Below, piece by piece: positions 43,603 to 49,560 of a DNA stretch of 64,000 nucleotides. The notes under the pieces are model-generated. The model was not told the DNA's origin. It worked only from the letters and a program-made list of their open reading frames with translations, and searched no databases. Position 1 is the stretch's first letter; each line of letters opens with the position of its first letter. The DNA is from an uncultured Paracoccaceae bacterium (GTDB lineage: Bacteria; Pseudomonadota; Alphaproteobacteria; Rhodobacterales; Rhodobacteraceae): assembly GCA_947501555.1 (NCBI GenBank), contig CANMWG010000001.1:496001-560000 (forward strand), given 5' to 3'. Position numbers and translations under genes: made by a program.

Positions 43603-44877
43603 TTGCTTGAACACGACCGGCCCATCACTCGGGCTTGGGTGCTACATCCTGATCTGAAATCAGACCAGAGCCGCCGTGACGCAGGTCCGGCGCTTGAAGA
43701 AGCTGTGTCGCTGGCCGCCGCTTTACCTGATCTGGACGTCTGCGGTGCGGACACCGTCCGTCTACCCCGGATTCATCCAGGCATGTTGTTTGGTAAGGGA
43801 AAAATCGAGGAATTGGCCGGTGTCCTGAAGGCCGCTGAGATCGAATTGGTATTGATTGACGGTCCTGTCACCCCTGTCCAACAGCGCAATTTGGAAAAGG
43901 CGTGGGGCGTCAAGTTATTGGACCGAACAGGTCTGATTCTCGAAATTTTCAGCGACCGCGCCCGCACGTCCGAAGGCGTGCTGCAGGTCGAAATGGCCGC
44001 CTTGTCCTATCAACGCACAAGGCTTGTCCGCGCCTGGACCCACCTTGAGCGGCAACGCGGCGGTTTGGGCTTCGTCGGTGGCCCTGGGGAGACCCAGATT
44101 GAGGCTGACAGACGGGCCATTGATGATCAGCTGAACCGTTTGCGCAAGCAGCTCGCTAAGGTCGTCAAAACCCGCGAATTGCACCGCGCCTCGCGTGCCA
44201 AGGTCCCGTTCCCGATTGTGGCTTTGGTGGGTTATACAAATGCGGGCAAGTCGACACTGTTTAACCGGCTAACAGGTGCGCAGGTTTTTGCCAAAGATAT
44301 GTTGTTTGCAACCCTTGACCCCACGATGCGCAAGATTGTGCTGCCCACCGGGGATGAGGTGATCATGTCAGACACGGTGGGCTTTATCTCTGACCTGCCG
44401 ACTGAGCTTGTGGCGGCATTCCGCGCTACATTAGAGGAAGTGCTGGATGCGGACCTGATCGTGCACGTTCGCGATATCAGCCACCCGCAGTCCGAGGAAC
44501 AGGCGCAGGACGTCATGGCGATCTTGCAGGGTCTGGGCATTGGCGAAGGCGCGCCGTTGATCGAGGTCTGGAATAAGATTGATTTGATGGACGGGGATGC
44601 GCGCGATGCGACCTTGAATCAGGTTGAGCGGACAGATGAGCTCTTCGCTGTCTCCGCATTGACCGGTGAAGGTATGGAGGGTTTGCTTGCCGCGATCCCG
44701 GACAAGCTGAAAGACCCGCGGCATGAAGCTAAACTCCATTTGCCCTTTTCCGATGGGCGCAAACGGGCGTGGCTGTTTGAGGCGGGTATCGTGACCGAGG
44801 ATATCATGACCGAGGATGGATATGATCTGACCGTGTTTTGGACGGAATTGCAAAAGCAACGGTTTGATCGGCTGTAG
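43603..44877 (+). CDS. hflX: Ribosome-associated GTPase HflX
   Basis: GTPase that binds the 50S subunit and rescues stalled or heat-damaged ribosomes. 424 residues. The N-terminal HflX domain includes RIHPGMLFGKGKIEEL and QRGGLGFVGGPGETQIE; the G domain has G1 GYTNAGKSTLFN, G3 DTVGF and G4 NKID. The start is TTG at 43603, 2 bases after hfq; no better in-frame start exists near. A decayed, colinear copy of its last 87 codons lies at 45976-46254, about 1.1 kb downstream. Confidence 0.95.
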   Translation: MLEHDRPITRAWVLHPDLKSDQSRRDAGPALEEAVSLAAALPDLDVCGADTVRLPRIHPGMLFGKGKIEELAGVLKAAEIELVLIDGPVTPVQQRNLEKAWGVKLLDRTGLILEIFSDRARTSEGVLQVEMAALSYQRTRLVRAWTHLERQRGGLGFVGGPGETQIEADRRAIDDQLNRLRKQLAKVVKTRELHRASRAKVPFPIVALVGYTNAGKSTLFNRLTGAQVFAKDMLFATLDPTMRKIVLPTGDEVIMSDTVGFISDLPTELVAAFRATLEEVLDADLIVHVRDISHPQSEEQAQDVMAILQGLGIGEGAPLIEVWNKIDLMDGDARDATLNQVERTDELFAVSALTGEGMEGLLAAIPDKLKDPRHEAKLHLPFSDGRKRAWLFEAGIVTEDIMTEDGYDLTVFWTELQKQRFDRL

Positions 44878-44981
44878 CATCGCCCGCCTGTGAACCGGTC
44901 ACCCCACATTTTGCCGCCCGCGTCGTATTGCCGTTACCAAATGCGTGCAGATGGAGTTTCTGACCATAAGGATGTGACGCA

Positions 44982-45806
44982 GTGCATTTTGAAACGCTCC
45001 AATCAATAAGTGTTAACGGAACCCCGACCAGAGCGAATGACGACCGATGCGGATCGACGGCGCAGTTGGCCTGGGTCATTGATGGTGCGACCGATTTGGC
45101 GCCATCCGGCCTATTAGGAAAACAGGGCGGTGCTGCTTGGTTGGCATCAAATGCGAACACCGCCTTTAACACGGTGCTGGCGGGGAACATTCAAGACACG
45201 TGTCAGTCAGTCTTTCATTGGATAGAAGAGCGGTTTGAAAGCCAAAAAACGCGAGATGTGGTGGCAGCCTGGGAAGTGCCCAAAGCCGCATTTGGTGTAG
45301 CTCAGCTAACGGACAATGGGCTGTCGGTCGCCTGGGCTGCTGACTGCCCGATTTTGCGGATGTCTGGGGGCGATGCCTTATGGTGCACTGGAGAGCCCGA
45401 TACCAGCGCAGAAGCGGAGGACGCCCGCGCATTGGGGGATGGGGTTGGTGCGGCGCGGGCGCTGTCGGGTGCTGTCCTAGAGGATCGAAGGGCCCATCGC
45501 GGGCAAGAAGGCCACGCAGCGCTTAGTCCTAATGCGCAGGCCGCCGCCGCGATCACGCGCTATGCGCATCATGACATCGGGGTCGGGGATGAGTTGCTTT
45601 TGATGAGCGATGGTTTTGCCAGTCTTGTCACTGATTACCAAAGATACACTGCAAAGGAACTAGCCGCCGCAGTCCGATCAGATGGTTTGGCAATGTTGGC
45701 ACATGAGATTCGAAGGATCGAGAATGAGGATTCTGCTTGCCTGCGTTTCCCGCGGTTTAAGGTGAGTGACGACGCCACTGCCATTTGGCTTAAGATTGCG
45801 GGTTAG
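44982..45806 (+). CDS. PP2C-family protein serine/threonine phosphatase-like protein
   Basis: 274 residues, soluble. PP2C metal-binding motifs are visible: RANDDR (18-22), VIDGATDL (32-39), LLLMSDGFASL in the C-terminal third and the closing DDATAIWL. It is short but has all four conserved aspartate blocks, so an active metal phosphatase is plausible. The start is GTG at 44982 with AAGGA about 11 bases upstream. It follows hflX by about 100 bases, and its stop coincides with the end of a decayed acylase fragment on the other strand, suggesting it was once convergent with an acylase gene. The target is unknown. Confidence 0.75.
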   Translation: MHFETLQSISVNGTPTRANDDRCGSTAQLAWVIDGATDLAPSGLLGKQGGAAWLASNANTAFNTVLAGNIQDTCQSVFHWIEERFESQKTRDVVAAWEVPKAAFGVAQLTDNGLSVAWAADCPILRMSGGDALWCTGEPDTSAEAEDARALGDGVGAARALSGAVLEDRRAHRGQEGHAALSPNAQAAAAITRYAHHDIGVGDELLLMSDGFASLVTDYQRYTAKELAAAVRSDGLAMLAHEIRRIENEDSACLRFPRFKVSDDATAIWLKIAG

Positions 45807-45975
45807 GGTCCTTCCGGCATCAGTACCGTTACCCCAATTGCTGCGGCGCGTGCCAGCTCCGGATCTAGTGACATGGGGGTACATTCGCTCCGCCGCTACA
45901 GTTCGCGTAGATTATCGTTGTCGCAGGTGCCCCGATTGCCCGGTTGGACTGACAAGGACCAAACTGTCATGATCC
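45803..45975 (-). pseudogene. Decayed 3' fragment of the penicillin-acylase-family gene
   Basis: About 170 bases match the 3' end of the intact acylase gene (47095 onward) in the same orientation. Shared stretches include CTGCGGCGCGTGCCAG and CCCCGATTGCCCGGTTG. Read on the minus strand, its end translates PMSLDPELARAAAIGVTVL, against PMSLDPDLARAAAVGITVL in the intact gene. A tryptophan codon has become TAG and a small deletion breaks the frame further in. Its stop (TTA on plus, 45803-45805) overlaps the PP2C stop. The opposite edge joins the hflX fragment at a shared GATCCG. Confidence 0.88.
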
Positions 45976-46254
45976 GTCCGCGAGGTGACGTTGAACCAGG
46001 TTGGGCGTGTTGACGAACTTTATGCGGTTTCAGCACTGACAGGGGCAAAGATGGAGCCGCTACTGGCCGCGATCCTTGATAAATTGGAGGACTAGTAGCA
46101 TGAAGCCGTGCTGCGTCCGCCCTTGGCAGATGGGCGCAAGCGGGTCCGGCTGTTTGATGCGGGGATCGTCACCAAGGATGCGATGACCGGGGATGGTTAT
46201 GGCATGACGATGAAGTGGATGGATTTACAGAAGCAACGGTTTGGCCACTCGTAG
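45976..46254 (+). pseudogene. Decayed 3' fragment of hflX
   Basis: The last 87 codons, from LNQV to the stop, are colinear with intact hflX without a single insertion or deletion; by hand about 57 of the 87 residues are the same (for example DELYAVSALTG, HEA, DGRKR, AGIVT, LQKQRF). Two neighbouring TAG codons (46093-46098) replace the PR of the intact protein, so it is non-functional. It has no start. It abuts the acylase fragment upstream and the orphan gene at 46370 downstream. Confidence 0.9.
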
Positions 46255-46261
46255 CGGGAAA

Positions 46262-46283
46262 GTGTCTCCGCTTTGCGGGACAC
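46262..46283. repeat. Short hairpin next to the hflX fragment
   Basis: GTGTCTCCGC (46262-46271) pairs with GCGGGACAC plus one G-T wobble (46275-46283 area) around a TTT loop, 7 bases after the fragment's stop. There is no T-run. It may be a leftover end of transcription signal; I cannot assign a role. Confidence 0.3.
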
Positions 46284-46369
46284 AGTTGCCATCCAAAAGT
46301 GGAATTCGAGTGTCCGCTTTCACATTTCAGGTTAACGTCTGGCGTCAGAAGGCAACTGGATTAGACATC

Positions 46370-47008
46370 ATGACACAAGACTTATTCGTTTCGGCGAGCG
46401 TTGAGGAGCAGGAAATGATGTCCGCGCCCATTCCTAGAGGCGCGAGTTGGGGGGTCGACTGGCATAAACTCAATCAGATGTGGCTTGCCGCTCTAGTGGA
46501 TCGTTCGATCCCCGCAAAAGGCTGGGCAATGTTTATGAGCGTAGACACGAGCCATCCAAAGTTCGTGACGGGACGACGAGATTTTGACGTTTTTCTATTA
46601 AACCAAGGCGAGCATCCAGTCTGGTCTCCACGTTGTTCCTATTATTCCGCGTTCAATTCGAGCGAATGCCCCGGTTGGGCAGAGTTTTCAGCAGAACTGG
46701 ATACATTCTATCGAGAGCAACCGAACGATCTACCTTTTGGCTTCAAAGATGACGGAGAATGGTTCGTAGATTGCATGGTTAATCGAATTGCACTTGAGAC
46801 ATTGCAGAAAGTGAATTGGCGACCGGGCAACTCAGTTGGGAGCCACTTTTTGTCCCCAAACACTGGCCAAGACATCATACTGCGTCCGCTCCACCCGTCG
46901 GGCGGACAATTGTTCGCTGCTACTCGCGGTTCGACCTATGAAGAGGCTGTCAACTTTTCGATCATGCATTCACAAAAAATCATCGTCCAGGATTTTGCTG
47001 CTGACTAA
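46370..47008 (+). CDS. Hypothetical protein, orphan in the duplication scar
   Basis: 212 residues, soluble, no signal peptide or membrane span. I do not recognise a family. It is rich in W, F and Y (HKLNQMWLAALVDRS, WSPRCSYYSAFNSSECPGW, DDGEWFVDCMVNRIALETLQ) and has four cysteines. The base composition is visibly richer in A and T than the flanking genes, hinting at transfer. ATG at 46370 is chosen over longer open starts that run back into the hflX fragment. It stands alone between the hflX fragment and the convergent acylase gene, with 86 bases to the latter. Confidence 0.6.
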   Translation: MTQDLFVSASVEEQEMMSAPIPRGASWGVDWHKLNQMWLAALVDRSIPAKGWAMFMSVDTSHPKFVTGRRDFDVFLLNQGEHPVWSPRCSYYSAFNSSECPGWAEFSAELDTFYREQPNDLPFGFKDDGEWFVDCMVNRIALETLQKVNWRPGNSVGSHFLSPNTGQDIILRPLHPSGGQLFAATRGSTYEEAVNFSIMHSQKIIVQDFAAD

Positions 47009-47094
47009 CTTTTATAGTTACCAATGCGGTCATTCGTGCATTCTGCAGCATCTGACAATTTGGGCTCAAAGCCGACATTGGTCTCGTGGAGAAC

Positions 47095-49560
47095 CTAAGG
47101 CGGCTCTGGCGTCAGCACCGTTATCCCAACTGCTGCGGCGCGTGCCAGGTCCGGGTCGAGCGACATGGGGATATATTCCCCCCGCCGCCAAAGCTCGCCC
47201 AGATTATCGTAGTAGCGTGACAATGGATGCCCCGATTGCCCGGTTGAGCTGATAAAGACCGAGCTGTCCGGATCCGCAAAGTCGTAAACCCCCCGATAGC
47301 CCGCCGCGTTTACATTCTGGAACGGGTCATCGCCGGTCCCAGATGTCTTGCCCCGTTGCAGCGTATTGTCACCGCCGCTGGTGGATTGTCTGATGTTCAC
47401 AACCCAATGTAGGATTGGTGTATTGCCCAGCACGGGATGATCATGCGTCGCAACATGGGCGTCTCCCCAACGCAAGGCTTCAACCGCGTCTCCGTAATGT
47501 TCGTTGATCCACAAAAGTGCATCGTCCAAGGATTGTCGCGCGATGTCGGTACATGTTTCGACCGGGGCCGATTGGATGACGTCACACCAGACGCTTGCAC
47601 CGTTGATGTCGCGGAATACCCGTTCGATGAAGATGGGGTCCGCATGGGTGAACTCGGCGGCGAGCGGGCCCAGCTCATCGCGGATCAGCCGTTGCTGGAA
47701 GGCGCGGACCCAGGCCGCATAAATCAAGGGCTCGGGCAGGTGTTCGTTCATCTCACCGTTCCAGGCCGACAGCAGGTCTAAAGCGATTTGTCGTTGTCTT
47801 TCAGGGGTGCCTTCGGGTGCGGCATCTCCGGTAAACCAAAGGTCTGCGCCCATGAGTGTCGACAACGTCAGGGCCGAAAAACTGACGGTGTCCAGCTGCG
47901 CCTCGATAAAGCTGTCGCGCGTGTGCACTTCGCGGGCCTGCATGAGCCTGCGCCAACGGTTGATCCGTTGCGTATCGCCCCACAGATGCGACACATGCAT
48001 CGGGAATGGTCGGTCGATTGTCTTATTATTGGTGTTGCCAATAATCCCGCCATCGGGGTTCAGGAACTCAGGATTATCATCGTAGGAAAAGCGACCTTGC
48101 CAGCGGTTCTCGGGCAGGTATCCAAAAGAGGGAAAGCGCCCTTGGCTTTGGTGATTGGCGTCGCGGGCGGGCAGCGCACCGATGGTTTTCATCGCGATCC
48201 GATTCCGGTCCGCCATGGTCAGGTTTTGGGCTGGTGCGATATAGTCTTCGCCTGCCGCAATCATGTCATCGACGGTCCGCGCGCGCATGATCCTCATCGC
48301 CGCTGACATGGACGTATCCCGGTCAGAAAGCGCGCTCCACGCGATAGAGGTCACATGGCCGGGTGGAGTGATAGTGCCAAGGTTGAATTGATCCCCGGGC
48401 ATGACCGGCCCATTCACTGTCCAGCGCAGACGCAACGTGACCGCTGGCGCGTCTTTGATTGTGATGATGCTGTTACGTGTCTGAAAAGGCACCCATCCGT
48501 TCAGCCCACGGTATTCGGATGGGTTATCCGGGTTCACTTCCTCGATGTAGATATCCTGGTCATCCACATAACTGCTTGTCAGCCCCCAGCCGATGCTGTC
48601 GCCACGTCCGCTGAGCACGAGTGGCATTCCCGGGATCGTCCCGCCGATCACACCGCCTGAGGACAATTCCAACCGTGCCAAATACCAGATCGCAGGTGCG
48701 GTCAGCTCAAGATGCGGATCATTGGCAAGTATCGTGGCGCCGCTGGCAGAGCGTGTCGCATTGGCTGCCCAAGCATTTGACGCACCAGCCAGCGCTGGGG
48801 GTTTGAACGGGGCGAGTGGATCGTCATCCGCGCGCATGTTGGCCGTGTAGGTTGGCACGTTCGGGACCAATTGGGCGTATTCCGGCAGTGCGGCGACCCC
48901 TTGGGTCGGGTCATCAGGTAATATATCAGCGAGCCTTTCATTGCTGACGACAAGTGATGTGCGTGCCCGCAAAACTTCGTTTTCCAGATGTGATGACAGC
49001 TGCAAGGCCATCAGCTTCAGGATCGCCAAAGAATCCGCTGGTTGCCAAGGAGATATCGGATGGCTGAACAACCACATCTCGGGCGCGCCTCGGCCACGTG
49101 CGCCAGCATTCACCTCTCCTAGCCAGGCATTTACGCCATTTGAATAGGCCTGCAATGCTGAGGTGGTTTCGTCATCCTGTGCCGCAACGGATGAGACTGC
49201 CAAAGTATAGAAATCATATCGGCGCAGCACTTCGTCGATCCCCACGGTCCGTTCGCCGAAGAGTTCTGACAGCCTGCCTTGGGCCGTCCGCCGCAACATG
49301 GTCATCTGCCACAACCGGTCTTGGGCATGCGCATAGCCGAGCGCAAAGAAGACATCCGCGTCTGTTTCGCCAAAGATATGGGGGACGTTGGCGTTGTTGC
49401 GCACAATCTCAACCGGGGCCGATATACCGGCGACCATGCTGGTGCTGTCGTATTCGGGCAATGATCGCGAGGCGAAGTAATACACCAACACCACAGCGCA
49501 GACGCTGAGAAAAATAAGCGCAGAGGCCAAACGTACCAGCCAGCGAAAGATGAATGCCAT
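47095..49560 (-). CDS. Penicillin acylase family protein (Ntn hydrolase)
   Basis: Secreted or membrane-tethered amidase precursor, 821 residues, normal for the family. The N-terminal hydrophobic stretch (about 5-28) serves as signal or anchor. The pro-region contains VPHIFGETDADVFFALGYAHAQDRLWQM. After a spacer the autocleavage site GASNAW exposes S261 as the N-terminal nucleophile of the beta chain; NDPHLELTAPAIWYLARL follows. Relatives act on beta-lactams, acyl-homoserine lactones or other amides; which applies here cannot be told. A decayed duplicate of its 3' end lies at 45803-45975. It follows livM on the same strand. Confidence 0.9.
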   Translation of the reverse strand: MAFIFRWLVRLASALIFLSVCAVVLVYYFASRSLPEYDSTSMVAGISAPVEIVRNNANVPHIFGETDADVFFALGYAHAQDRLWQMTMLRRTAQGRLSELFGERTVGIDEVLRRYDFYTLAVSSVAAQDDETTSALQAYSNGVNAWLGEVNAGARGRGAPEMWLFSHPISPWQPADSLAILKLMALQLSSHLENEVLRARTSLVVSNERLADILPDDPTQGVAALPEYAQLVPNVPTYTANMRADDDPLAPFKPPALAGASNAWAANATRSASGATILANDPHLELTAPAIWYLARLELSSGGVIGGTIPGMPLVLSGRGDSIGWGLTSSYVDDQDIYIEEVNPDNPSEYRGLNGWVPFQTRNSIITIKDAPAVTLRLRWTVNGPVMPGDQFNLGTITPPGHVTSIAWSALSDRDTSMSAAMRIMRARTVDDMIAAGEDYIAPAQNLTMADRNRIAMKTIGALPARDANHQSQGRFPSFGYLPENRWQGRFSYDDNPEFLNPDGGIIGNTNNKTIDRPFPMHVSHLWGDTQRINRWRRLMQAREVHTRDSFIEAQLDTVSFSALTLSTLMGADLWFTGDAAPEGTPERQRQIALDLLSAWNGEMNEHLPEPLIYAAWVRAFQQRLIRDELGPLAAEFTHADPIFIERVFRDINGASVWCDVIQSAPVETCTDIARQSLDDALLWINEHYGDAVEALRWGDAHVATHDHPVLGNTPILHWVVNIRQSTSGGDNTLQRGKTSGTGDDPFQNVNAAGYRGVYDFADPDSSVFISSTGQSGHPLSRYYDNLGELWRRGEYIPMSLDPDLARAAAVGITVLTPEPP

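Follow-up and report, generated by a model that had tools for sequence, protein, structure and literature searches.

A pair of decayed gene ends between convergent hflX and acylase genes

The window analysed here is a stretch of 64,000 nucleotides from the genome of an uncultured Paracoccaceae bacterium (GCA_947501555.1, contig CANMWG010000001.1, positions 496,001 to 560,000 of the forward strand), and coordinates are given from its first base. We refer to this genome as G000 and to its nearest relative as G022. Within the window, hflX, which encodes the GTPase HflX, and a gene for a penicillin-amidase-family acylase converge, and between them lie two cargo genes separated by relics of the acylase and hflX 3′ ends, here termed acylase′ and hflX′. 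This relic pair had been noticed in a preliminary description (44614..47280); the observation is real, and the interpretation offered with it is borne out in part. The locus contains the following features:

43603..44877, + strand: intact hflX (Pfam GTP-bdg_N, GTP-bdg_M, MMR_HSR1 and HflX_C)
44982..45806, + strand: PP2C-like gene, cargo 1 (Pfam PP2C_2 below the cut-off, E 0.029; counterpart in G022 with 83% amino acid identity)
45803..45976, − strand: acylase′, relic of an acylase 3′ end (137/172 alignment columns identical to 47105-47276; 8-base deletion and an internal TAG)
45971..45978, no strand: join of the two relics (GATCCG, which is acylase-type, then TC, then hflX′; judged against the intact genes and seven relatives)
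45979..46254, + strand: hflX′, relic of an hflX 3′ end (ungapped against 44602-44877; two in-frame TAGs; terminal TAG retained)
46267..47067, + strand: orphan-gene module, cargo 2 (gene at 46370-47008; 91.6% identity over 801 columns with a stretch of genome G434)
47095..49560, − strand: intact penicillin-amidase-family acylase (Pfam PF01804, E 2.9e-194)

The acylase relic lies in the same orientation as the intact gene, and its local alignment, which covers 45813-45976 with 8 gap columns, is extended by global alignment to the stop codon, where TTA at 45803-45805 is the reverse complement of TAA; the earlier description had assigned 45803-45975 to the acylase 3′ end. The hflX relic, previously given as 45976-46254 and 87 codons, begins at 45979 and comprises 91 codons plus a stop, with 67% amino acid identity to intact hflX over 88 codons and, in a local nucleotide alignment that includes its left edge, 193/273 identical columns with 2 gap columns. 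Local scores (mismatch −2) were 192 for acylase′ and 223 for hflX′, compared with maxima of 35 and 43 in 500 mononucleotide shuffles of each, and chance similarity is ruled out because both scores lie far above all shuffles. A search of the genome with the relic at E ≤ 0.001 found three places: its own position and those of the two intact genes, the acylase and hflX. The alignments thus bear out the view that these are duplicated ends of the two genes, and both copies are decayed and dead. The lack of indels in hflX′ had been used to argue for a foreign homologue, an argument that is not supported, as acylase′ has an 8-base deletion.

At the join, the two genes had been thought to share GATCCG. 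This hexamer (45971-45976) is present in the relic and in the intact acylase, whereas intact hflX carries GATGCG, two bases out of register, and GATCCG is absent from hflX in all seven relatives compared, so the shared motif does not stand. The overlap at the join may amount to 0-1 bp, with divergence too high for a firm statement, and little or no microhomology may have been present. On the other side of acylase′, the PP2C stop (TAG, 45804-45806) overlaps the acylase′ stop, TTAG at 45803-45806 being common to both, and the overlap that had been reported, with the PP2C-acylase junction preserved at the relic, is therefore seen.

The gene ends form a direct repeat of the type A B A B (hflX end, acylase end′, hflX end′, acylase end), and the locus can be read as a single junction present twice in tandem, in two versions, hflX-PP2C-[acylase′] followed by [hflX′]-orphan-acylase. 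The order is as originally described, and is the one expected if a segment spanning hflX to the acylase had been duplicated or had been a partner in recombination.

The hflX/acylase junction across the genus and family

We searched 56 genomes of the genus for hflX and the acylase, and 49 (G000 included) were readable across the junction, with the genes being convergent neighbours in all 49. The remaining seven were dropped either because the genes lie on different contigs (G001, G018, G047 and G058) or ~200 kb apart (G017), or because the genome is incomplete and has no full-length match to either gene (G053 and G063). The stops overlap or lie within 4 bp of each other in 14 of the 49 (eleven overlap by 4 bases, three are within 4 bp), are 45-98 bp apart in 7, and are separated by 418 bp to 31 kb in 28, including G000. 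Junction contents in these 28 range from single small genes up to inserts of 9-31 kb; they are diverse, with some common to closely related genomes (G068 being outside the comparison), and a scan of ten out of 22 junction open reading frames gave DUF7674, GGDEF, AAA_33, alpha/beta hydrolase, TetR, SNase, LysR, NADAR and Beta-lactamase matches and one without a family. Two junctions (G015 and G065; L124 and L126) hold ~9.1 kb of inserted DNA in common at 90.5% identity, with ~7.6 kb extra on the hflX side in G065.

A sample of 60 further genomes from the family was examined under strict limits, using one piece or copy where a gene was fragmented or multiple. Both genes were found in 56 of the 60 and on one contig in 43, where they are convergent in 36 and non-convergent in 7; the convergent pairs are ≤250 bp apart in 18 cases, 250-2500 bp apart in 16 and >160 kb apart in 2. 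Convergence across the genus and the family sample, together with the varied inserts, points to an old convergent neighbourhood with repeated insertion. The comparison of synteny that had been proposed finds the two genes as neighbours across the genus. The suggestion that hflX-PP2C-acylase was the original order holds at most for the group of G000 and G022, as the PP2C-like gene occurs in 2/56 genus genomes and hflX and the acylase meet without cargo in 14/49.

Using the hflX and acylase genes of each genome as queries, we found a relic pair in one of 50 junction gaps tested, that of G000. The other 49 gaps, each of at least 60 bp, contained no relics, the stray matches being of 16-34 bp (blastn) plus one of 20 residues in G065 (tblastn, E 0.006).

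Placement of the relics in trees

As had been proposed, the relics were aligned and placed in trees with the intact copies and those of relatives, where they group with G000 and G022. In a genus tree of 50 hflX 3′ ends (G043, whose hflX end is altered, was omitted), hflX′ forms a group with G000 and G022 with support of 100/99; within this trio it leans to G022 (97/77), although the AU test does not reject a tree that joins it to G000 (p 0.44). In the corresponding acylase tree (49 rows), acylase′ joins G000 (91/82) and then G022 (94/86).

Wider trees, in which bootstraps were not fully settled, were made by adding 16 genomes of other genera and G068. Here the hflX trio is retained (99/98), but hflX′ moves to become the sister of intact G000 hflX (92/68); acylase′ is again with G000 (96/77; trio 94/90). 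Derivation of the relics from another genus is unsupported, as both still group with G000 and G022 in the presence of the 16 other-genus genomes. These trees place the source of the relics within the G000-G022 group, and since the relics fall inside it, 'foreign' can mean a sister lineage only. Topology does not separate a copy from a sister-lineage allele, with the widest tree leaning to a copy.

Divergence and decay

At the third positions of the 88 hflX codons, the intact gene and relic differ at 40 sites, the intact gene and G022 at 44, and the relic and G022 at 43, making the three nearly equidistant. At positions 1+2 (176 sites) the corresponding differences are 37, 23 and 39, and the excess in the relic is attributable to decay. 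The plain reading is that hflX′ would once have been a functional hflX end, separated from the intact gene by roughly the distance of G022, and later decayed. For the acylase (56 third positions) the differences are 17 between intact gene and relic, 27 between intact gene and G022, and 35 between relic and G022, which is nearer to what a copy would give.

With G022 as reference, the divergence of hflX′ can be split roughly into 0.55 under constraint and 0.15 during decay, and the constrained part was no larger than the decayed part in 0.029, 0.016 and 0.015 of bootstraps with G022, G018 and G019 as references, respectively. For acylase′ the split is 0.23 and 0.16, and the similar decay parts (0.15 and 0.16) are consistent with one event for both relics. 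In a joint likelihood ratio test, in-place duplication with immediate decay fits worse than a model with equal earlier divergence in both genes (p 0.015-0.021) or in hflX only (p 0.003-0.005), while the difference between hflX and the acylase in earlier divergence is not significant (p 0.05-0.08). The codon-position and likelihood tests constitute moderate evidence, because they rest on Jukes-Cantor corrections of short, partly saturated sites. The earlier proposal that hflX′ is foreign and not the product of in-place decay gains from the codon positions and not from the trees, where the relic sits with G022 (97/77) or with the intact gene (92/68).

The two cargo genes

The PP2C-like gene lies directly 3′ of hflX in G000 and G022, the two genus genomes that carry it, and a NADAR gene stands between it and the acylase in G022. 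Third-position divergence between these two genomes is 0.40 for PP2C, 0.50 for hflX and 0.47 for the acylase, making the PP2C value ordinary for the pair. Among 393 other genomes of the family sample it was found in five, two of them weakly, and it is also present in three named genomes (Tateyamaria, Candidatus Rhodobacter lobularis and Ruegeria haliotis). Outside the genus it was not found beside hflX or the acylase in the flanks of eight PP2C loci (five with ~1.5 kb per side, one ending 355 bases past the gene), one flank (L027) giving a match of 46 residues, weak at E 4.6e-4, with the GTPase portion of HflX. The genome of G000 holds a single match to PP2C, with no second copy. The protein weakly matches the PADLOC model PDC-M21C (E 0.0002), in which PDC presumably stands for defence candidate.

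The orphan module starts 12 bases past the hflX′ stop, and 27 bases separate its end from the acylase stop. Among 394 family genomes, our own included, the orphan occurs in one other, G434, which belongs to another genus of the family and holds the matching stretch at L148 6345-7144. The 14 kb examined around that copy contains neither hflX nor the acylase. Judged by eye, translations of nearby open reading frames look ArdC-like, ParB-like and Fic-like, which would suggest an accessory region. Searches of Pfam, PADLOC, NCBIfam and PHROGs (at the limits used), of viral contigs and, by tblastn, of 72,556 plasmid records gave no match to the orphan. Neither cargo protein is an integrase or transposase by Pfam, PADLOC and NCBIfam, a scan that covered these two of the open reading frames between hflX and the acylase.

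Putatively neutral divergence between the two orphan copies is 0.147, for both branches together, and the relic age is ~0.15 (95% interval 0.09-0.22 or 0.07-0.21, depending on the reference). The orphan divergence falls short of double the relic age (equality has p 0.028 or 0.125, depending on the reference), and at face value the orphan arrived later than the relics, unless the G000 lineage was the source of the G434 copy.

The interval between the orphan and the acylase includes a 61-bp stretch (47021-47081) that begins with CCAATG and ends with CATTGG. It has diverged matches elsewhere in the genome (C1:86841-86894, 80%; C1:2624583-2624643, 75%) and a 36-bp match in the junction of G019, and was not listed by an inverted-repeat scan.

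Origin of the relic pair

The data show the relics, their order, the variability of the junction and the group in which the relics fall; a route and a direction of recombination are our inference. Our tentative preference, to which we give close to an even chance, is that one-sided recombination with a sister-lineage allele left two versions of the junction side by side. The convergent junction would be a site where the family gains small cargo genes, and in an ancestor of G000 a sister-lineage segment with a different version of the junction would have recombined there. One end of the exchange would have been formed by normal homologous pairing, within hflX or the acylase or farther out, and the other by an illegitimate join that linked a point inside the acylase end of one version to a point inside the hflX end of the other. 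This would yield hflX-PP2C-[acylase end] + [hflX end]-(orphan)-acylase in one step; the outer genes would remain whole while the inner ends, being functionless, would decay, and the orphan would have been either already present in the second version or a later arrival. Since PP2C is common to G000 and G022, the version without it is somewhat more likely to have been the newcomer. Each inner gene end survives as a relic, and the two relics lie between the cargo genes. In favour of recombination we count the tandem order and orientation of the two cassettes, the convergence of the flanking genes in genus and family, the variety of the cargo, the third positions of hflX with the likelihood ratio result, the similar decay of the two relics, the overlap of the PP2C and acylase′ stops, which functional neighbours would show, and the lack of any trace of a second PP2C.

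Several results weigh against this preferred reading. In the widest tree hflX′ pairs with the intact G000 gene (92/68), as in-place duplication predicts, and the genus tree does not reject that pairing (AU p 0.44); acylase′ sits with the intact G000 acylase in both trees (91/82 and 96/77). Taken alone, acylase′ has no significant extra divergence (bootstrap shares of 0.32, 0.33 and 0.28 with G022, G012 and G041, respectively). The likelihood ratio test is a simple one, with Jukes-Cantor distances, nearly saturated third positions and 264 and 174 sites. Along intact hflX and the intact acylase there is no change in divergence from G022 that would mark a crossover, a scan in which a crossover between equally distant lineages would leave no signal. 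The split between the orphan and its G434 copy seems to postdate the relics (p 0.028 or 0.125, depending on the reference), and there is no second relic case among the 49 other gaps.

A strong rival, with a considerable but smaller probability, is an in-place tandem duplication, in which illegitimate joining would have duplicated the segment from the hflX end through PP2C to the acylase end, the second PP2C would have been lost with the orphan taking its place, and the inner ends would have decayed. It yields exactly the observed A B A B order and makes a second lineage unnecessary; the grouping of acylase′ with the intact acylase, its divergence, which fits in-place decay, and the position of hflX′ in the widest tree are all as it would have them. 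Against it, third-position divergence of hflX′ is near species level (40/88 compared with 44 for G022) and the joint fit is worse. The second PP2C has left no trace in the genome, though later loss is possible, and the orphan module starts 12 bases past the stop codon of hflX′, which by then would have lost its function.

The two further alternatives are improbable. In one, a ~450-bp tandem duplication across a bare hflX/acylase junction would have come first, with PP2C and the orphan inserted later, one per junction; bare junctions are present in 14/49 genus genomes, insertion there is common and the orphan looks younger than the relics, but PP2C would have needed to insert with single-base precision at the stop of an acylase end that no longer functioned (the TTAG overlap), its ordinary divergence from G022 makes it probably older than the relics, and the objection from hflX codon positions applies here too. 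Slightly less probable again is the arrival of the relic fusion ready-made on a circle or mobile element, as a circle of hflX end, cargo and acylase end with a single crossover in hflX or the acylase would by reasoning alone give the same order, but the two cargo proteins are not integrases or transposases by Pfam, PADLOC or NCBIfam and the orphan is missing from the plasmid records searched.

Comparison with known systems

In homology-facilitated illegitimate recombination the illegitimate end lies at short microhomology. Merodiploids made by transformation in Streptococcus pneumoniae are reportedly large and recent, whereas the relics here are of a few hundred bases, old and decayed. The relic locus is a further, older example of a known general kind of event. 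Passages of PMC2884548 and PMC5361080 describe homology-facilitated illegitimate recombination in Acinetobacter, Pseudomonas stutzeri and Streptococcus pneumoniae, which resembles our proposal in having one homologous anchor and one illegitimate end, with new genes placed beside resident sequence; our locus differs in being an old scar, with little or no microhomology at the join. For the Vibrio cholerae type VI secretion system (T6SS), the authors of PMC5361080 propose that incoming cassettes displace a resident gene end, which is kept downstream, by a process akin to homology-facilitated illegitimate recombination. The displaced 3′ ends and orphan immunity arrays found there resemble our locus in this proposed origin, but immunity genes and effector ends are kept, whereas here the ends of convergent housekeeping genes are fused and dead. 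The merodiploids, as outlined in sections of PMC3784515, share with our locus a partial tandem duplication, which arises during DNA uptake. Small variable genome segments, much of whose variation is ascribed by the authors of PMC2884548 to illegitimate recombination, likewise differ in their small contents from one genome to another at a given position; that was a within-species survey of other species, whereas ours follows one convergent junction through a genus and family. Literature searches on the hflX/acylase junction returned nothing that we took to bear on it, which is not proof of unpublished status.

The scar is roughly datable and shows small-gene build-up at a core-gene junction without an identified integrase or transposase. 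If the reading as two versions of one junction is true, back-to-back relics of gene ends could be used as a genomic marker from which events of one-sided recombination are counted.

A possible site of exchange

The hflX-acylase junction, which varies within both the genus and the family, offers a ready natural experiment in how cargo turns over. It is conceivable, but we think it unlikely, that the junction is a long-lived, integrase-free, family-wide site of exchange where cargo is swapped when the two flanking housekeeping genes recombine, perhaps by way of a gene transfer agent (GTA), and that the relic pair is a misfire of this process. A GTA is also a possible carrier of the incoming segment in the recombination proposed above. 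The account of RcGTA in part of PMC9690577 has it moving ~4.5-kb fragments that are integrated by allelic replacement. The single GTA marker sought, GTA_TIM (PF13547), was found in the G000 genome as a full domain in a 1300-amino acid open frame (E 4.3e-150), and among 14 control genomes it matched one, that of Caulobacter vibrioides.

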